Origin: a virus
Reading direction: 5' to 3' (one strand)
Virus record (IMG/VR): IMGVR_UViG_3300025641_000040
Span: 1 to 25,226 of that record
Length of the DNA: 25,226 nt
Shown here: in pieces, positions 7,555 to 24,506 of the stretch
Position numbering within the stretch: position 1 is the first letter of the stretch
Layout: the number at the start of each line of letters is the position of its first letter
Translations under genes and position numbers: made by a program
Notes under the pieces: generated by a model
What the model saw: only the letters and a program-made list of their open reading frames with translations
The model's database searches: none
What the model was told of the DNA's origin: nothing

Positions 7555-7841
7555 TATTTTGACCTTCCTTCAGCAAACCCTTTAAACGATGAAGCTTTAT
7601 TATCTATATTATTAGTATCAAGCATATTGTTTTCTTCTTCAATTTTTGTTAAAATTTCAAAAGCATCAAATATAGCTAACTTCTTAGACGCTGCTGCATT
7701 TTTTAATCTATCTGCTGCAATATCAGGAGATAACCCATCTAAGTCTTTTTTTAAAATACCTTCATTAGCAACTTTAATAAGTTCTTGTACAGCTTTTTTA
7801 CCTGCTTTTATAATTTCTAATTTTAATTCAGTATTGTTCAT
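7554..7841 (-). CDS. Small helical protein, candidate terminase small subunit
   Basis: This 95-aa, predicted mostly helical protein contains KLEIIKAGKKAVQELIKVAN, then ADRLKNAAASKKLAIFDAFE and a Glu/Asp-rich linker (ILTKIEEENNMLD), and ends FAEGRSK. It lies immediately upstream of the large terminase with a TAATG stop-start overlap, the usual place of a small terminase. The size and helix content would suit the oligomerising core of such a protein. No helix-turn-helix is obvious, so the role is inferred from position. The preceding gene overlaps it by four bases (ATGA), so all three are probably translated together. Confidence 0.6.
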   Translation of the reverse strand: MNNTELKLEIIKAGKKAVQELIKVANEGILKKDLDGLSPDIAADRLKNAAASKKLAIFDAFEILTKIEEENNMLDTNNIDNKASSFKGFAEGRSK

Positions 7842-8404
7842 AAAACCATTGTTATATTTTTATCAAACATTCTATATAGTTTTTCACCATCTACATTAAA
7901 TTCATATTCACTATCTGGCTGAAAAGAAACTTTATCGCCTTTATTAATACCCTTACTAATTAAGTACTTATTAGGATACTTAACTAAGCCAATTAATGGC
8001 TCTTCCTCTGCGTGAGTTTTAAGGTAATGATTCCCACCCTTTTCAATAGGTTTAATCATGCAGTATTTAGAATGAGCTTTCCATTCTCCATTTTGCTTAT
8101 ACATAAAAAACTGATCGTTGTCTATAAAAAACAAATCGTCCTTAAAGAAGCTTTTTCCGCTCTTTTCTCTACCCTGCATATCATTGTAGTACTTAAATAC
8201 ATTATGATGCACTAAAAGGGTGTCTCCTGGCTTTATAGGGCCTGTGTAGTTTATCGGAGTTTCAACAACTATTGCGTATCGATTAGATACAGTATGATCT
8301 TCTTTAGATGAACTTGTTATTAAATTAACATTTCCAATCTTTATAGTGTTATCATACCTTTTGTTATTGCTCGGTTTTACAATAAAATTAAAAGGTGATT
8401 TCAT
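7838..8404 (-). CDS. Tandem GroES-like (double Cpn10) protein
   Basis: This 188-aa protein reads as two GroES-like barrels in series. Domain 1 (about 5-105) starts FNFIVKP. It then has IGNVNLITSSSKEDH (23-37), where GroES has its mobile loop GGIVLTGSAAAKS, followed by NRYAIVVETP and IKPGDTLLVHH (57-67), matching the GroES pattern VKVGD-hydrophobic. Domain 2 (about 111-188) has SKYCMIKPIE, LIGLVKY and GDKVSFQPDSEYEFNVDGEK, ending DKNITMVL, closely parallel to the GroES C-terminal strand pattern GDKVLF...DGEE...DILAVL. Domain 2 lacks an evident hydrophobic mobile-loop tripeptide. Fused double-GroES proteins are known as chloroplast Cpn20. The gene sits in the head module rather than beside groEL, suggesting a role in head-protein folding. 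It overlaps both neighbours by ATGA. Assignment is from motif reading by eye. Confidence 0.68.
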   Translation of the reverse strand: MKSPFNFIVKPSNNKRYDNTIKIGNVNLITSSSKEDHTVSNRYAIVVETPINYTGPIKPGDTLLVHHNVFKYYNDMQGREKSGKSFFKDDLFFIDNDQFFMYKQNGEWKAHSKYCMIKPIEKGGNHYLKTHAEEEPLIGLVKYPNKYLISKGINKGDKVSFQPDSEYEFNVDGEKLYRMFDKNITMVL

Positions 8405-18308: not shown

Positions 18309-18701
18309 TTATTTATTTTTCTTTGAAGCTTTCTCCCAACTTCTTCCAACAAAATAAGCTCCATATACTGTTACAAGTAATGTTTGGAAAATAGGTATGT
18401 ATTCTTTAGCTATTACAAAATCAGCTATATTACCATCAGTAAAACATAATGCAGTAAATATAACAGTCAAGTATATTAAAACCAACGGTCTAATATTTTT
18501 AGACAAAAAAGAATCACTTTGCATGTCATATTTCCAACGTTCACTAACTGCTTGTTGAGCTTCTGTATCTGCTTTCTCTAATATTTCTTGAATTTTTTGT
18601 TTAGCAACGAGCCTTTCTTCATCTGTCGTTATAAGTTCATCAAGAACATTTCCAACTTCTTTAATTACATTGCCACTTAGCCACTCCCATATTTTTTTCA
18701 T
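18309..18701 (-). CDS. Holin, gene-transfer-agent 3TM-holin-like
   Basis: The first ~60 residues of this 130-aa protein are amphipathic helix (VIKEVGNVLDELITTDEERL, then KIQEILEKADTEAQQAVSER). It then has SDSFLSKNIRPLVLIYLTVI, which leads into a hydrophobic span at about residues 69-88. A second span follows at about 102-122 (IPIFQTLLVTVYGAYFVGRS), and the tail is basic (EKASKKNK). The S-x-x-S-x-x-RP-hydrophobic entry to the first span and the DEE-rich N-terminus are typical of the holin family first described for gene-transfer-agent release. Its ATG overlaps the stop of the amidase gene (ATGA). It would open the inner membrane to let the amidase reach peptidoglycan. Confidence 0.82.
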   Translation of the reverse strand: MKKIWEWLSGNVIKEVGNVLDELITTDEERLVAKQKIQEILEKADTEAQQAVSERWKYDMQSDSFLSKNIRPLVLIYLTVIFTALCFTDGNIADFVIAKEYIPIFQTLLVTVYGAYFVGRSWEKASKKNK

Positions 18702-19105
18702 AATAATTCGTATTCTTTAGTTGCATCAAAACTTGGACATGCTTTAGAGGAAAAATCTCTATGTCCATGTATAACTGCGTTAGGAAATATATTTTTTAAT
18801 GTTTTTAATAATAAAATAAAACTTTCTTTTTGTTCTTTTGTTCTATTGTCTTCTGGGCAATTTTTAAGGTCTACACCGCCTGCATAACATATTCCTATAC
18901 TATTACGGTTATTTCCTTTTGTATGCGCTCCAGAGGTCTCCAATGGCCTACCTAGTTCGATCTGACCATCTCTTTTAATAAAAAAATGGTAGCCAATACC
19001 TGACCACCCTCTTTCTAAGTGCCATTCATTGATAGTAGCAGCATTAATATCCATAGTTGGATTAGTTGCTGCGCAATGAATAATTATTTTATTTATTTTT
19101 CTCAT
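18698..19105 (-). CDS. N-acetylmuramoyl-L-alanine amidase (T7 lysozyme type endolysin)
   Basis: This 135-aa amidase_2-family enzyme cuts the bond between N-acetylmuramic acid and L-alanine in peptidoglycan. All key residues of T7 lysozyme can be aligned without gaps in the motifs: zinc ligands His10 (IIIHCAAT), His115 (IHGHRD) and Cys123 (SKACPSFD), with catalytic Tyr39 (GIGYHFFIKRDG) and Lys121. The signature GAHTKGNNRNSIGICYAGG is also present. No signal peptide is seen, so it needs the holin encoded directly downstream (ATGA overlap). The length is close to T7 lysozyme but about 15 residues shorter, mainly at the N-terminus. The T7 enzyme also binds T7 RNA polymerase; nothing here suggests that. 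Confidence 0.95.
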   Translation of the reverse strand: MRKINKIIIHCAATNPTMDINAATINEWHLERGWSGIGYHFFIKRDGQIELGRPLETSGAHTKGNNRNSIGICYAGGVDLKNCPEDNRTKEQKESFILLLKTLKNIFPNAVIHGHRDFSSKACPSFDATKEYELL

Positions 19106-19250
19106 TATAATTAATCCATATTCTTTGAGCTGTATAAACTATAGAAGCCGTTAATAGAATTAATTTTAACGCCATTTCCATTTCAGTAAAAGACAGGCTA
19201 ATACTTAAAAAATTTAAAGCATATATTTTTATGTCTTGCATAGTTATCAT
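19089..19250 (-). CDS. Small membrane protein of the lysis cassette (53 aa)
   Basis: The translation begins MITMQDIKIYALNFLSISLS, has a hydrophobic stretch MALKLILLTASIVYTAQRIW (about 26-45) and ends INYNEKNK. One clear transmembrane segment, possibly two, with a short charged C-terminus. It overlaps the start of the amidase gene by 17 bases. A second possible start is Met4. Position next to amidase and holin suggests a second holin, a holin regulator or another membrane-disrupting helper; no family was identified with certainty. Confidence 0.7.
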   Translation of the reverse strand: MITMQDIKIYALNFLSISLSFTEMEMALKLILLTASIVYTAQRIWINYNEKNK

Positions 19251-19318
19251 TTTCTTATAAGTATATAATTTACTTCTAAGTCTAATAACGCACTATTATC
19301 TTGTGTATATCCTACCAT
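19247..19318 (-). CDS. Possible 23-aa coupled micro-ORF
   Basis: The frame encodes MVGYTQDNSALLDLEVNYIL plus IRK. Its stop overlaps the next gene's ATG (ATGA) and its start overlaps the previous gene's stop by seven bases. It may be a real micropeptide, or only a leader that lets ribosomes travel from the upstream gene to the small membrane protein. It could equally be chance; coding evidence is limited to the two overlaps. Confidence 0.3.
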   Translation of the reverse strand: MVGYTQDNSALLDLEVNYILIRK

Positions 19319-19569
19319 AATGCGACAATTTCTCCTGCTGTTGTACCTGTGTCATACACTTGCAATACATTTACTGGGAAAAATTGCCCTGCATAAACTC
19401 CTGTAAAAGTAACATCATCACCACCTACAGTTTTTACTCTAATATTTCCAGGTAACCCTATATATAAAGCGCACCCATTATTAGTTCCTCCTGTAACACT
19501 TGGAATTTGATCTGTGTCACTTGGAGCAACTATTGCTGCCCTACCTGCTTGTAATTTTTGATATGCCAT
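19312..19569 (-). CDS. Small putative virion protein (85 aa, beta-rich)
   Basis: This 85-aa protein begins MAYQKLQAGRAAIVAPSDTD and continues with GTNNGCALYIG, NIRVKTVGGDDVTFTGV, YAGQFFPVNVLQVYDTGTTA and GEIVALW. The even spread of short beta strands and the pattern RA-x-x-V-x-PSDT ... GC-x-LY-h-G ... VGGDDVTF ... PV-x-V recur in small phage structural proteins of unassigned role. I think a head-decoration or tail-associated protein is likely, but this is from memory of the pattern and not a proven family. It is between the micro-genes and the lysis cassette. Confidence 0.68.
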   Translation of the reverse strand: MAYQKLQAGRAAIVAPSDTDQIPSVTGGTNNGCALYIGLPGNIRVKTVGGDDVTFTGVYAGQFFPVNVLQVYDTGTTAGEIVALW

Positions 19570-19572
19570 TTT

Positions 19573-19743
19573 TTATTTATTGTAAGGAAACATTCTGTTT
19601 AAACTATCTTTTCGTTGACCACATCCGCAAGGTTTTTTTGTAACCTCACTTATTTTGTCAACAACAGCTTTTACTCCTGTTGCCTTTGTTATTTTTTCTA
19701 TTGTATCTCCTAATCCTTTTGATTTCATTTCTTGCAAGTACAT
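19573..19743 (-). CDS. Small CGCG-motif protein (56 aa)
   Basis: The translation begins MYLQEMKSKGLGDTIEKITK and continues with an amphipathic helix, VDKISEVTKKPCGCGQRKDS, and LNRMFPYNK. The motif C-G-C-x-x-R-x-x-x-LN-x-x-FPY at the end recurs in tiny phage proteins and could bind a metal or form disulphides. Only two cysteines are present, so a mononuclear zinc site within one chain is unlikely; a dimer is possible. Met6 is an alternative start. It overlaps the preceding 47-aa gene by 19 bases and leaves only three bases before the next gene's start. Confidence 0.68.
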   Translation of the reverse strand: MYLQEMKSKGLGDTIEKITKATGVKAVVDKISEVTKKPCGCGQRKDSLNRMFPYNK

Positions 19744-19868
19744 AATTTATTTGGACAACTATCGACTACTTTAAAAGTAATAAACATTAAAGCATAATTC
19801 CAACTACATTGAAATTTACACCATACTTTTTGCATCCACAATCCTAATTTTATAAAAGCTCCTCCCAT
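19725..19868 (-). CDS. Small Cys/aromatic-rich protein (47 aa)
   Basis: The translation begins MGGAFIKLGLWMQKVWCKFQ, then CSWNYALMFITFKVVDSCPN and KLCTCKK. It has five cysteines in 47 residues (CKFQC, then SCPNKLCTCKK) and a hydrophobic middle. It could be a small metal-binding or membrane-peripheral protein; no function is assigned. The start lies 16 bases after a TATATTTG -7 box, which supports it as a real first gene of a transcript. It overlaps the next gene by 19 bases. Confidence 0.58.
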   Translation of the reverse strand: MGGAFIKLGLWMQKVWCKFQCSWNYALMFITFKVVDSCPNKLCTCKK

Positions 19869-19884
19869 TTATTTTTTTATTTTA

Positions 19885-19892
19885 CAAATATA
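19885..19892 (-). promoter_or_regulatory. Bacteroidota-type -7 box (TATATTTG)
   Basis: The minus strand reads TATATTTG (preceded by TTG) in the 32-base gap before the 47-aa gene. It matches TAnnTTTG and would start a transcript covering the small genes, the virion protein and the lysis cassette. Confidence 0.55.
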
Positions 19893-19900
19893 CAACTATT

Positions 19901-20155
19901 TTATTTTCTTGATTTAGCTCCTGAACACTTCCATCTCTTTCGAGATAAGTTGTTTGGAGTATTAGGATCGTTTCTTTTTTTAGCAGAAAGTCTTTTTTTA
20001 ATTCCTAAACTCCTAGCACAATAGCTATCACCTTTAGATGTACCAGGTCTTACTCTTGGGCCTCCACCCTTAGCACTACCTGCTTGTCCGTAACTTACCT
20101 TTTTACCGCTTGCAGTAATTTTTACTTTAGCTTTACCTTTCCTCGGTGTTGCCAT
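19901..20155 (-). CDS. Basic 84-aa protein with RPGT..GDSYCARS motif
   Basis: I chose the start at 20153-20155 (MATPRKGKAKVKITASGKKV) because its ATG overlaps the previous gene's stop as TAATG. An in-frame upstream ATG would lie inside that gene. The protein is very basic and Gly-rich, with GGGPRVRPGTSKGDSYCARS in the centre, and ends LSRKRWKCSGAKSRK. It resembles tiny basic phage proteins of unknown role that share the RPGT-x-x-GD-x-YCARS string. The charge suggests nucleic acid binding, possibly as a packaged DNA-associated virion protein. Two Cys (YCARS, WKCSG) are conserved-looking. Confidence 0.75.
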   Translation of the reverse strand: MATPRKGKAKVKITASGKKVSYGQAGSAKGGGPRVRPGTSKGDSYCARSLGIKKRLSAKKRNDPNTPNNLSRKRWKCSGAKSRK

Positions 20156-20445
20156 TATTTTTTTTCTTTCTTTTTTCTTAAAGGTGAGTTTTGACCTTCC
20201 CATCTACCCATTTTTTCCATTTCAGGCTCTCCTTCGTACTTTAGTCTTTGTTTAGAAGGTTTTAATCCTCTTAATCCTAATGAAAATCCTTTTCTGTACT
20301 GAATAGAATCTCTTTTAGTAGCAGGAGTTCTACTATCAACATTATTTGCTATATTATTAGCTTGTCTTGCCTGTCCTAATAAAGTAAATTTTAATCCTTT
20401 TCTGCAATCAATTAATGCTTGTCCTTTTTTTCCTATACATCCCAT
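20155..20445 (-). CDS. Basic hypothetical protein (96 aa)
   Basis: The start is taken at 20443-20445 (MGCIGKKGQALIDCRKGLKF). It falls four bases after the stop of the upstream 41-aa gene; a longer in-frame start would overlap that gene. The protein is basic, with TPATKRDSIQYRKGFSLGLR, then GEPEMEKMGRWEGQNSPLRK and a KKKEKK tail. The N-terminal segment with two Cys (GCIGKKG...DCRKG) is unusual. No enzyme motif is visible. Its stop overlaps the next gene's start (TAATG). Confidence 0.7.
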   Translation of the reverse strand: MGCIGKKGQALIDCRKGLKFTLLGQARQANNIANNVDSRTPATKRDSIQYRKGFSLGLRGLKPSKQRLKYEGEPEMEKMGRWEGQNSPLRKKKEKK

Positions 20446-20449
20446 AATT

Positions 20450-20575
20450 TTATTTTTTACCGCATTTAGCGTAAACACTTTTTTTTATTTGTTTATCTGA
20501 AGGTAACCCATTTTTTTCTGGCTTTACACCACTTTTTACAGCTGCTGTAAAATAAGGTTTTAATTTTTTTTCCAT
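20450..20575 (-). CDS. Tiny basic protein (41 aa)
   Basis: The translation is MEKKLKPYFTAAVKSGVKPE, KNGLPSDKQIKKSVYAKCGK and K: Lys-rich with one Cys near the end. It ends four bases before the next gene's ATG and is in line with its neighbours, which supports coding. No function is recognised. Like the adjacent 39-, 84- and 96-aa proteins it is strongly positive and could associate with nucleic acid. Confidence 0.6.
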   Translation of the reverse strand: MEKKLKPYFTAAVKSGVKPEKNGLPSDKQIKKSVYAKCGKK

Positions 20576-20590
20576 TGCTATAATTATTTA

Positions 20591-20710
20591 TTATTTTTTT
20601 ACACAGTTATTTACTCGTTTAATTTTACCGCTTGCGGTTTTTTTTCTGCTTGGAGATTTCTTAGTTCCTTTAGCAACATATCCTGTCCAACACTTCTGTT
20701 TATATGCCAT
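20591..20710 (-). CDS. Tiny basic two-Cys protein (39 aa)
   Basis: The translation is MAYKQKCWTGYVAKGTKKSP followed by SRKKTASGKIKRVNNCVKK. The pattern K-CW-x-GY near the start and NCV-x-K at the end recurs in very small phage proteins of unknown role, where it brackets a Lys/Gly-rich middle. The two Cys could pair or co-bind a metal in a dimer. It lies two bases after the 253-aa gene and 15 bases before the 41-aa gene. Confidence 0.62.
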   Translation of the reverse strand: MAYKQKCWTGYVAKGTKKSPSRKKTASGKIKRVNNCVKK

Positions 20711-21486: not shown

Positions 21487-21645
21487 TTATGCACATAATT
21501 CTGGAATCATTCTACTATCTCCAATTACTGTTTCTTGTTCGCAAAAATCATCAAGCTCTGTTATTATAAAACAGATTTCTGGTATATCTTCGTTTCTTTT
21601 GTCTTGAAACGGTATTCCGTTTCCTATAGCTGCTCCTAATCCCAT
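21487..21645 (-). CDS. Small acidic protein (52 aa)
   Basis: The translation is MGLGAAIGNGIPFQDKRNED, IPEICFIITELDDFCEQETV and IGDSRMIPELCA. It is acidic with three Cys, in contrast to its basic neighbours. Its ATG overlaps the stop of the 103-aa gene (TAATG), which supports coding. The Gly-rich start followed by a helical acidic segment is not diagnostic, and no function is assigned. Confidence 0.62.
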   Translation of the reverse strand: MGLGAAIGNGIPFQDKRNEDIPEICFIITELDDFCEQETVIGDSRMIPELCA

Positions 21646-21956
21646 TATTTACCTCCTGTATTACCTTTGTTTTTTCTACCTGCTCCTTTTTTACCTCTAG
21701 CTCTCTTGTCTCCAGGAGTGTTAGACTTACTTCCTCTGTTTTTAGATTGAGCTTCTAACACAATACGACCTTTTTTGTGGGAAACATCTAATTTATCTCC
21801 ATTACCATAAGTCCCTTTTTCTCTATTCTCCCTATTATCTGCAACTCTTTTCTTTATTGAAGATCTTTTTTTATTGTATTTAGCCTGATAATCACGATGT
21901 TTTTTTCTTGCATCAGGGTTATCTCTGTAAAATTTAGCAGTTCTGCTTAACGCCAT
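21645..21956 (-). CDS. Basic 103-aa phage protein, possible nucleic acid binder
   Basis: I chose the start at 21954-21956 (MALSRTAKFYRDNPDARKKH) because a TATCTTTG -7 box lies just 18 bases upstream; a longer in-frame start would run through that promoter. The N-terminal half is a basic helix (RDYQAKYNKKRSSIKKRVAD, NRENREKG). Then come GTYGNGDKLDVSHKKGR and a very basic, Gly-rich tail (SKNRGSKSNTPGDKRARGKK). The pattern G-N-x-D-x-x-DVSH is loosely like an HNH loop, but the second half of such a nuclease site is not visible. A virion DNA-associated protein or a small RNA/DNA binder is more likely. Confidence 0.72.
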   Translation of the reverse strand: MALSRTAKFYRDNPDARKKHRDYQAKYNKKRSSIKKRVADNRENREKGTYGNGDKLDVSHKKGRIVLEAQSKNRGSKSNTPGDKRARGKKGAGRKNKGNTGGK

Positions 21957-22934: not shown

Positions 22935-24506
22935 TTATTTTCTTTTCATTGTTACTATTGCGTTTGTACTTAATATTGTTGTCGCTACACTTACTGCATT
23001 CTTTAATGCATTCTTTGTAACCTTAGCAGGATCTATAACACCCATCTTATACATATCCCCAAACACTTTGTTTTGAACATCATATCCAAAATTGTAAGGA
23101 ACACTTGCACAAGAACATATCCTGTCTCTTATTTCTTTTATGTTTTCACCTGCATTAGTAAGTATTTGTTCTAATGGTGATATCAAAGCTCCATACATAA
23201 CATCATTAGCATTCCCATCCGCTAACAGTTCAGCACAACGCAACAAAGCTAACCCTCCGCCTGGAAGTATCCCTTCCTCAATCGCAGACTTAACAGCACA
23301 TACCGAATCCTCTACTCGATCATATTTTTCTTTCTGCTCTATATCAGAATCAGCTCCTACATAAATTATTCCTACAGCTCCAGATAATAAAGCAATTCTT
23401 TCAGAAATAAAATCTCTTTCTCTTTTGTCTGAATTGTTTTCCTTCTGAACCTTTAATTCTTCAATTCTAGTTACAGCCTCTTTACTACTCGAATCATTAT
23501 TCATAATTACTGTAGAATTCTGACCTACAATAATTTTGTCTGCATGACCTAAGTCCTCCATAGACAACATCCCAATATTATCTCCCTGTGACTCGCTGAA
23601 ATATTTTGCCCCTATAGCCAACGCAATATCACTCATCAATTCATTTGTCTTGTATCCAAAAGATGGAGGAATAATATTGCATAGCTTTAGGTTATTTTGA
23701 ATAACATTCGCTGCTAAAGTATTTGTTACATTACCTGAACAATTTCCTATAATTAAAAGCTTCTTGTTTTGATTTATTATTGGCTTTAATATATTTTCAA
23801 TCTGAAGTATATTAGTAATCTCCATGTCTGTCATTAAAACATAAACATCATCTAAAATACATTCATCGTTTCTGTGATTATTAATAAACAGCTTTGAAGA
23901 ATATCCCCTGTCAATCTTAATTCCTTTAGTTACCTCGTAGTATGTTTTGTCTGTCTTGCTGTTCTCAACCGTAAGTACTCCGTCTTTACCTAATTCCTTA
24001 TAAGCACTAGCAATCATTTTTCCTATTACATTATCATTGTTAGCAGAAATACTAGCAACATGCTGTAACGTTTTACCTGTAACTTTTTTTGAAGATAAAT
24101 CTAACTCCTTGATTACATTATCAGAAACAACTTTAATATCTCTAATTAACTGTGTAGTGTTAATCTCTGGATTACGCTGTATTAATCGCATACCCTCTTT
24201 TACAATAGCCTCAGTTAATACAATCGCAGTTGTTGTTCCATCTCCTGCAGAAGTAGCAGTTCTATCAGCAGCCTCCTTCATCATAGTAATCGCCAAGTTC
24301 TCTACAGCGTCCTCTAAGTCAATCGACTTAGCAACCGTAACCCCATCCTTAGTAATGGTAATTCCTCCTGTATGATTCTGTGATTCAATTAGTACTGTCT
24401 TGCCAAGTGGCCCTAATGTACTTTTTACTGCTCTGGAAATTGTAGTGATTCCGCTTAATAATTTGTCTCTCCCCTCCTGATCGAAGGATAATTCTTTTGG
24501 ATTCAT
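22935..24506 (-). CDS. groEL: Chaperonin GroEL, divergent phage form
   Basis: This 523-aa chaperonin subunit has all domains in order. ATP site: TLGPLGKTVLIES, Asp54 (TKDGVTVA), Asp89 (AGDGTTTA) and Asp400 (RVED), matching E. coli Asp52, Asp87 and Asp398. The apical domain has helix H (LQIENILKPIINQ) and helix I (GNVTNTLAANVIQNNLK) for substrate and GroES binding. The hinge GILPGGGLALLR is present. The C-terminus ends TMKRK without the Gly-Gly-Met tail. Most striking, the inter-ring segment SPLEQILTNAGENIKE aligns without gaps to E. coli APLRQIVLNCGEEPSV: positions 452, 461, 463 and 464 (R, E, S, V) are here Glu446, Asn455, Lys457 and Glu458. The region matching the other inter-ring contact (E. 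coli Ala109) also differs, with two extra residues. It therefore may not form the standard double ring. Confidence 0.96.
   Translation of the reverse strand: MNPKELSFDQEGRDKLLSGITTISRAVKSTLGPLGKTVLIESQNHTGGITITKDGVTVAKSIDLEDAVENLAITMMKEAADRTATSAGDGTTTAIVLTEAIVKEGMRLIQRNPEINTTQLIRDIKVVSDNVIKELDLSSKKVTGKTLQHVASISANNDNVIGKMIASAYKELGKDGVLTVENSKTDKTYYEVTKGIKIDRGYSSKLFINNHRNDECILDDVYVLMTDMEITNILQIENILKPIINQNKKLLIIGNCSGNVTNTLAANVIQNNLKLCNIIPPSFGYKTNELMSDIALAIGAKYFSESQGDNIGMLSMEDLGHADKIIVGQNSTVIMNNDSSSKEAVTRIEELKVQKENNSDKRERDFISERIALLSGAVGIIYVGADSDIEQKEKYDRVEDSVCAVKSAIEEGILPGGGLALLRCAELLADGNANDVMYGALISPLEQILTNAGENIKEIRDRICSCASVPYNFGYDVQNKVFGDMYKMGVIDPAKVTKNALKNAVSVATTILSTNAIVTMKRK

Follow-up and report, generated by a model that had tools for sequence, protein, structure and literature searches.

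A cassette of eight small genes in a marine phage and its kinship with modules of cyanophage proteins

This study concerns a cassette of eight micro-genes at positions 19089-20710 of the IMG/VR virus record IMGVR_UViG_3300025641_000040 (25,226 bases; below, the window means this whole stretch). We found that the cassette consists of real genes. Its 84-residue product (the 84-mer, family D) is under extreme constraint and nearly virus-only in the collections searched and, judging by profile matches, it joins the uncharacterised DUF6321 family (PF19846) through free intermediates. By sequence comparison, DUF6321 modules and the family of the 39-residue product (39-mer) are beads of one protein of T4-like cyanophages, T4-GC119, which carries further micro-families as well. 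The likeliest of the readings weighed, in our estimate about as probable as not, is that the basic cassette members (the 39-, 41- and 84-mers, perhaps also the 56- and 96-mers) are packaged internal head proteins.

The cassette and its conservation

As the original prediction had proposed, the region holds a cassette of micro-genes: on the minus strand, eight open reading frames (ORFs) with ATG starts, 39 to 96 codons long, follow one another head to tail, and the small motifs quoted for them were all found. From the upstream end they encode a 39-mer of family A (CW-x-GY...NCV; 20591..20710), a 41-mer of family G (PYFTAA.KSG..PE..GLPS.KQI..S; 20450..20575), a basic 96-mer (20155..20445), the 84-mer (RPGT-x-x-GDSYCARS...RKRWKC; 19901..20155), a 47-mer with five Cys as predicted (19725..19868), a 56-mer of family F (CGCGxRxxxLN; 19573..19743), an 85-mer (19312..19569) and a 53-mer with a hydrophobic stretch, seen by eye, whose gene adjoins the lysis genes (19089..19250). 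Five of the eight fall under the 60-residue cut-off below which gene finders had been expected to miss them. Junctions range from a 19-base overlap to a 61-base gap. Two kinds of stop-start overlap had been claimed: TAATG is present at the junction of the 96- and 84-mer genes, and ATGA occurs if the 56-mer starts at an inner ATG (19728), where the ATG ORF of its relative in locus L005 starts (loci holding relatives carry L numbers). Probably, the 56-mer has 51 residues and starts at 19728. For the 96-mer, the ATG at 20445 fits the L004 relative better than an upstream GTG.

In 2000 sequences sampled from the dinucleotides of the region, minus-strand ATG ORFs of at least 39 codons numbered 0.63 on average and 5 at most, against the 8 observed; the plus strand of 19089-20710 has none. 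The predicted isoelectric point was 9.4-11.6 in six of the seven window proteins computed, and charge alone makes nucleic-acid or DNA binding by these proteins plausible. The ORFs are not one class: the 85-mer is fibre-type, a profile match placing it in the tail-fibre family phrog_12296 (E=1.4e-12) and an elemo phage protein being 55% identical to it, and the 53-mer is membrane-like by eye. Both probably stand outside the basic set and are best read as fibre-associated and lysis-associated neighbours.

Substitution ratios in relatives had been suggested as a check on the cassette, and frames broken in relatives as a result that would count against it. We observed that all eight ORFs keep their frame in at least one relative, and that the per-site non-synonymous rate was below the synonymous rate in every comparison (86 codon comparisons of the 84-mer, 14 covering six other cassette genes, 4 covering two neighbours, and 6 further). 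The ratio of these rates (dN/dS) had a median of 0.043 and a maximum of 0.10 for the 84-mer (32 unsaturated comparisons of the 86; 54 saturated). The 56-mer gave 0-0.13, the 85-mer 0.08-0.19, the 53-mer 0.15-0.20 and the 41-mer 0.09-0.39; the ratio was 0.40 in the one comparison of the 96-mer (with its L004 relative, 64% identical) and 0.28-0.60 in the fast-evolving 47-mer. The 39-mer, for which tblastn gave no match in the first loci examined, is identical at 38 of 39 positions in L260, a contig of a Bacteroidetes metagenome-assembled genome (MAG), with 6 synonymous vs 1 non-synonymous change. The 39-, 84-, 85- and 56-mers have strong coding evidence, the 96- and 47-mers weaker evidence.

Relatives of the 41-mer were found in five loci (71-85% identical in L004, L028, L052 and L053; 73% in L260), those of the 47-mer in L005, L028, L052 and L053 (36-64%), and those of the 56-mer in 7 loci at 49-100% identity, including MW202828 (L090:12748-12918). 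The 53-mer is 91% identical in L005, 46% in L052 and L053, and 35-48% identical to ORFs of 55-59 residues in L011, L260 and a Flavobacterium elemo phage. L005 keeps the order of the 84-, 47-, 56-, 85- and 53-mers; its slot for the 39-, 41- and 96-mers holds one ORF of 118 residues, which tblastn did not link to those three. L260 has relatives of the 41-, 39-, 84-, 56- and 53-mers, and the place of the 47-mer is taken there by a Cys-rich 51-mer.

The 84-mer, DUF6321 and fused modules

Among the matches listed, at least 593 of the first 600 candidate IMG/VR stretches encode a relative of the 84-mer, and the best 80 of the listed relatives are 83-96% identical to it. In L010, L011 and L013 the 84-mer is 94% identical while the terminase reaches only 72-74% and the amidase 56-57%; despite the 94% identity of the 84-mer, GroEL is 40% identical in L011 and L013. 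Close relatives in 84,980 species genomes were confined to 10 contigs, all from MAGs. The phage collection gave 31 matching records at E 0.01, which come from phages of Vibrio, Roseobacter, Pelagibacter and cyanobacteria and from one unassigned marine phage. Residues C46, A47, R48, W75 and C77 are invariant in 30 free members of family D. AlphaFold2 predicted residues 40-84 confidently (pLDDT about 89), with two main helices; the basic N-terminus was unreliable, mostly of low confidence up to residue 32. The closest viral models include proteins of 730 and 816 residues (49-54% identity), and among solved structures neither D nor D', a family described below, had a convincing match by sequence or fold. 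An 81-residue protein of Synechococcus phage MinM2 (L091:2926-3171), linked to the 84-mer by tblastn, is annotated 'RecA-like recombination protein', apparently wrongly. In P-SCSP1c, the D gene comes immediately after that of the major capsid protein. The families found near D include portal, head-tail adaptor, major head and small terminase; head and terminase families were also found far from it, and the functional categories of near genes (representatives of 50 clusters) and far genes (44) were not clearly separated.

Searched against Pfam, the 84-mer matched no family at E<=1, and the DUF6321 cut-off was not reached by the window protein. The connection was made with two profiles of free proteins: A3, from 19 sequences of the window's own RPGT branch, and A1, from 30 sequences of the RPGT and DUF6321-type branches. 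A3 matched the free intermediates HTVC027P gp52 (1.1e-9), HTVC115P gp68 (1.1e-5) and P-SCSP1c gp14 (3.6e-4). HTVC027P gp52 passes the DUF6321 cut-off (51.5 bits vs 28.5), and its match with A3 thus links the 84-mer to the family. A1 matched 10/10 cyanomyophage DUF6321 carriers tested, at 5e-8 to 9e-17 (none of 3200 shuffles as high; shuffle maximum 10.4 bits). With A3 (3200 shuffles, maximum 15.8 bits), the carrier nearest the window branch was S-TIM5 gp065 (1.6e-18). An earlier, iterated D profile had absorbed fused D modules, and its scores of 1e-16 to 1e-21 against them are not independent; in the retest with free proteins only, the window branch alone gave a weaker link to the fused modules than that profile had. 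DUF6321 and T4-GC119 resemble D in the core Y/F-C-A-R...W-x-C common to 30 free proteins and differ from the window protein, which is a free 84-mer with a different N-terminal half and without a Pfam score. DUF6321 is not named in any paper of the open-access literature searched.

In T4-like cyanophages, the C-terminus of T4-GC119 is a DUF6321 module (Pfam matches: S-SM1 SSM1_115, 2.8e-22; Syn9 gp114, 5.4e-21; S-RIM8 gp098, 9.5e-21). The module also occurs free, in Pelagibacter HTVC115P (75% identical to the S-RIM8 module, 1e-25) and in P-SCSP1c (58%, 4e-12). For the micro-families we built local profiles A from relative L011, B and C from relative L004, D from the 84-mer, E from a 103-mer encoded upstream of the cassette, F from the 56-mer and G from the 41-mer. 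The family A profile, with standalone seeds only, matched Syn9 gp114 (1.9e-12), S-SM1 SSM1_115 (2e-4) and S-CREM2 gp160 (2e-4). The window 39-mer scored 12.7 bits (E 0.12) against three standalone A seeds and 21.4 bits against a model of six free and fused A sequences, from which both the 39-mer and L260 had been left out; none of 20,000 shuffles scored as high (maximum 17.9), so that with this model the 39-mer falls in family A above shuffled controls.

Family B' stands alone in Roseobacter CRP-902 gp70 and CRP-7 gp64, matches the S-SM1, S-RIM8 and Syn9 carriers at 4e-16 to 3e-19, and is carried by three T4-GC119 proteins. The free B profile (YPSAYA) reached fused B' weakly (E about 2), and for C' in T4-GC119 the free C profile gave no match there. 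B and C are adjacent on one strand in 78/80 B-fetched and 76/77 C-fetched loci; D is present in 11 and 23 of these, respectively, and lies within 1 kb in 10 and 21. S-CAM4_113 (L359:2342-2767) is a DUF6321 module fused to a GLYANIHAKRKR module (E=2e-13, 47.0 bits vs a shuffle maximum of 27.7), and in the T7-like P-SCSP1c the GLYANIHAKRKR module is a separate gene directly after DUF6321 (L096:5192-5368). S-SZBM1_194 and S-SZBM1_195 were considered as candidates for the T4-GC119 slot, and the D profile matched neither. Shortly before most beads of the fused proteins we noticed a Glu. Among the unknown genes of viral contigs these micro-families are very common: at least 600 candidates were listed for each of D, B, C and D', of which only D is in the window.

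Virion evidence and the reading of function

Table 3 of the S-CREM2 paper lists 52 proteins from CsCl-purified particles, with their coordinates (PMC10665884). Among the S-CREM2 proteins, a DUF6321 module was found in gp137 (40.8 bits in Pfam, against a cut-off of 28.5), and C', A and B' in gp160. At E=0.1 none of the profiles (A, B, B', C, C', D, D', E) matched another scanned ORF, the record having been scanned in four overlapping pieces in which gp85 and gp124, long genes at piece ends, were not whole. Both carriers are in the virion list, gp137 with 4 unique peptides (4.1%) and gp160 with 7 (13.1%) (PMC10665884). A second line of evidence comes from the GenBank note 'similar to Synechococcus phage S-SM1 protein', which in P-HM2 is attached to 10 of the 51 features between 84 and 133 kb: T4-GC119, gp13, 14, 15, 18, 19, 20, 21, 23 and 3. 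The nine besides T4-GC119 are neck, head, portal, protease or tail genes, and the terminase and replication genes are without the note. In shorter stretches of Syn1 (3/11 features) and S-ShM2 (3/12), it marks gp14, gp15 and T4-GC119, not gp16/gp17. PMC3037559 describes 41 S-SM1 virion proteins, marked with their orthologues in Figure 1; because of this marking and the distribution of the notes, we infer that the notes mark S-SM1 virion proteins, T4-GC119 included. In the S-SM1 record, SSM1_115 (T4-GC119) is labelled hypothetical.

We also searched for capsid-targeting N-termini, using a pattern with what we take to be the residue classes at positions 4, 7, 8 and 10 (aromatic, aromatic, aliphatic, Glu). 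In T4 IPIII, the first ten residues suffice for packaging, positions 4 and 7 serving mainly targeting and 8 and 10 processing (PMC9026906). The pattern fits 5/752 cyanophage ATG ORFs of at least 60 residues in 14 fetched pieces, and shuffled N-termini gave 0.006 fits on average and at most 1 in 500 rounds. The five are S-SZBM1_192 (a D carrier), S-SZBM1_191 and S-RIM8_099 (each adjoining a D carrier), and S-CREM2 gp6 and gp154. These last two are the only fits independent of the pattern's design, and both stand in the S-CREM2 virion list (PMC10665884). They are a S-adenosylmethionine (SAM) hydrolase and a cytidylyltransferase, respectively (L353:3837-5081 and L352:34609-35469). The pattern could help to find packaged cargo in cyanophages. 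Sought anywhere inside 11 proteins of these slots, it matched twice, in S-RIM8_099 and S-SZBM1_194, and nowhere in the T4-GC119 proteins of S-SM1, Syn9, S-RIM8 and P-HM2. S-SZBM1_194 (707 residues, L102:15253-17376) combines a S-adenosylmethionine lyase domain (Pfam 33 bits) with this internal capsid-targeting-like stretch. The T4 proteins IPI-IPIII are small, basic and head-packaged, and S-SZBM1_192 shares the pattern at positions 4, 7, 8 and 10; unlike them, the window proteins are without such a leader and the window phage is not T4-like, and we claim no sequence relation.

If the basic members are packaged, they would be late, separately translated mini-domains that become part of the head and travel in the virion together with the DNA, and the free mini-proteins would do what T4-like cyanophages do with same-family modules strung on internal head proteins. 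The 84-mer branch would then share the role of the DUF6321 modules; the separate window proteins would be packaged, would sit inside the head and would be ejected into the host. The basic N-terminus of the 84-mer may contact DNA, its folded, C/W-anchored part holding the capsid or a partner. That a head protease cuts the beads apart is our guess. Position was counted in favour of packaging, the cassette adjoining lysis genes here and D adjoining the major capsid gene in P-SCSP1c. The fusion of related modules as beads of virion proteins turns a 'conserved hypothetical' into a specific and cheap test, namely to look inside heads.

The original prediction had suggested, from charge, either packaged nucleic-acid binders or small host-takeover factors. 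Packaging found support on the side of homologues, with the DUF6321 module in gp137 and the 39-mer family in gp160, both virion-listed, and a targeting-like start on S-SZBM1_192. On the side of the window, none of the eight proteins has a capsid-targeting start; S-SZBM1_192 itself is not in the virion table of its phage. Further observations weigh against packaging. The targeting pattern was written after the N-termini of S-SZBM1_192 and S-RIM8_099 had been seen, and one of ten cyanomyophage D carriers fits it, the other nine not. The presence of both S-CREM2 carriers in a list of 52/219 proteins has an a priori chance of about 0.06, the coverage of gp137 is 4.1% and its detected peptides may fall outside the module, and the authors caution about co-purification (PMC10665884). 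The main text of PMC9146016, as far as available, does not include S-SZBM1_192, a DUF6321 carrier; its Table 1 gives 30 virion proteins. In S-TIM5, gp065 and its neighbour gp066 (family A) are labelled 'hypothetical' in a record that labels others 'virion structural protein'. The window branch profile A3 was not significant against gp137 (11.0 bits, E 0.79, 2 shuffles as high), gave no match for S-SM1, Syn9 and Sf-FS3 and nothing significant for Syn1, S-ShM2 and S-CAM4, and was weak against S-RIM8 (0.0013), P-HM2 (0.0064) and S-SZBM1_192 (0.012). No fusion with the 41-, 47-, 56- or 96-residue families was found. Partners were rare in the 80 loci whose listed 84-mers are the closest (A 4, B 3, C 3, E 7, F 6, G 4); D therefore travels with many partners, and the exact set of the window is not fixed.

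Four other readings were weighed. The proteins might assist the terminase as accessory factors of DNA packaging, working at the portal and ending up in particles only because they are trapped there. Gene order speaks for this. The interval that separates the small from the large terminase gene contains the T4-GC119 gene in P-HM2, S-SM1, Syn1 and S-ShM2, and gp137 in S-CREM2; D genes lie three (Roseobacter CRP-7) and four (CRP-212) genes upstream of the large terminase, and family E in P-SSP7 adjoins the small terminase and an HNH nuclease. However, the terminase genes are without the S-SM1 note, the S-CREM2 virion list includes the module carriers and not the terminases, and the capsid-targeting-like start of S-SZBM1_192 points to the head interior; we regard this reading as unlikely. 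The same judgement applies to host-takeover factors made in the cell and not packaged. Here the genes adjoin lysis genes, and in P-SCSP1c the capsid gene, carriers of related modules occur in virions, and D relatives span phages of roseobacters, vibrios, pelagibacters and cyanobacteria, which is unusual for a host-specific factor, even though takeover loci typically have small, basic, variable sets of micro-genes. Host takeover as such is compatible with packaging, because packaged proteins can be injected effectors.

Less probable still are outer capsid decoration or head-tail joint proteins: the location of D directly after the major capsid gene in P-SCSP1c would suit them, but the accessible part of the cryo-electron microscopy (cryo-EM) paper on the related phage P-SCSP1u reports no decoration protein in the icosahedral shell (PMC10575957), and the D and D' models match no solved structure. 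Finally, the rapid evolution of the 47- and 96-mers (dN/dS 0.28-0.60) might suggest that most of the micro-ORFs are chance or decaying frames. This is hardly credible, as the codon comparisons contradict it, with frames kept and non-synonymous below synonymous rates throughout, and none of 2000 shuffles reached even seven ORFs.

The window phage and wider viral families

The window phage is a marine, flavobacterial-type phage. In the large terminase, identity is 68% with MW202828 (Manatee Spring) and 44% with Flavobacterium elemo phages, and there are also matches in Cellulophaga, Tenacibaculum and Maribacter phages. On the minus strand, the order is a family E 103-mer, a 52-mer, a 253-residue protein without a PHROG match at E 0.01, the cassette, an amidase and a holin, then four long ORFs that are fibre- or adhesin-like by eye, a GroES-like protein, the terminase, the portal, a 364-residue protein located where a scaffold gene is usual and, at the place of the capsid gene, a virion structural protein. 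The amidase endolysin (18698-19105; Amidase_2 4.4e-15) and the holin (18309-18701), both on the minus strand, lie directly downstream of the cassette; their region, 18309..19105, matches phrog_822 (2.2e-59) and phrog_3427 (2.6e-29). Upstream of the cassette, a GroEL-type chaperonin gene (22935-24506) encodes a protein 54% identical to the MW202828 protein annotated groeL, and is well separated from the GroES-like gene (7838-8404). Also upstream, the basic 103-mer of family E (YGNGD.xDVSHK..S.NRG; 21645..21956, minus strand) matches phrog_6437 (3.8e-22) and, by tblastn, 106 phage records. Its relative P-SSP7_048 (E 6.6e-13) is flanked by the small terminase and an HNH endonuclease. The idea that the 103-mer family is a degenerate HNH nuclease was dropped, the profile picking P-SSP7_048 and not the HNH endonuclease P-SSP7_049.

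In the elemo phage and MW202828, GroEL and the homologue of the 85-mer flank a different protein, of family D' (FxARHxC...). Elemo D' is DUF5754 (PF19058; 44 bits, cut-off 27.4), a protein called Tlr6f in PMC12220804; Tlr6F is described in PMC4642659 as conserved in many viruses and without similarity to domains of known function. The window 84-mer did not match the Tlr6F/DUF5754 profile, and hhalign of D vs D' gave 0.2% without intermediates and a weak 62-69% with them. Both predicted models show strands followed by two helices, the strands of D being of low confidence. D and D' may be related, a link that, if it holds, would point to a role of Tlr6F. Possible intermediates are the proteins of L222:6825-7070, L239:1737-1982 and L233:3056-3307, in which the N-terminal half resembles Tlr6F and the end, YCARS...RRAWxC, resembles DUF6321.

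On DUF5872 (PF19197), B' aligns at positions 1-46 and C-type proteins at 49-109, all below the curated cut-off; since they cover successive parts, DUF5872 looks like a B'+C fusion. B resembles B' in design, and B and C are neighbouring genes; neither B nor C is in the window. DUF5872 and DUF5754 proteins are listed for the algal virus CpV-BQ1 in PMC12085832. Marine phages, giant algal viruses and polinton-like viruses might conceivably share a modular toolkit of virion-packaged mini-proteins (DUF6321, DUF5872, Tlr6F/DUF5754 and allies), present as free micro-genes in small podophages and strung on capsid-targeted internal proteins, possibly cut by a protease, in large cyanophages. We consider this doubtful; if true, Tlr6F, which has been described without a role from phages, virophages and giant viruses, would gain its first function. 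The D' module (query model L272:4001-4255) is also predicted inside longer proteins of uncultured phages, named XkdF and ChaB.

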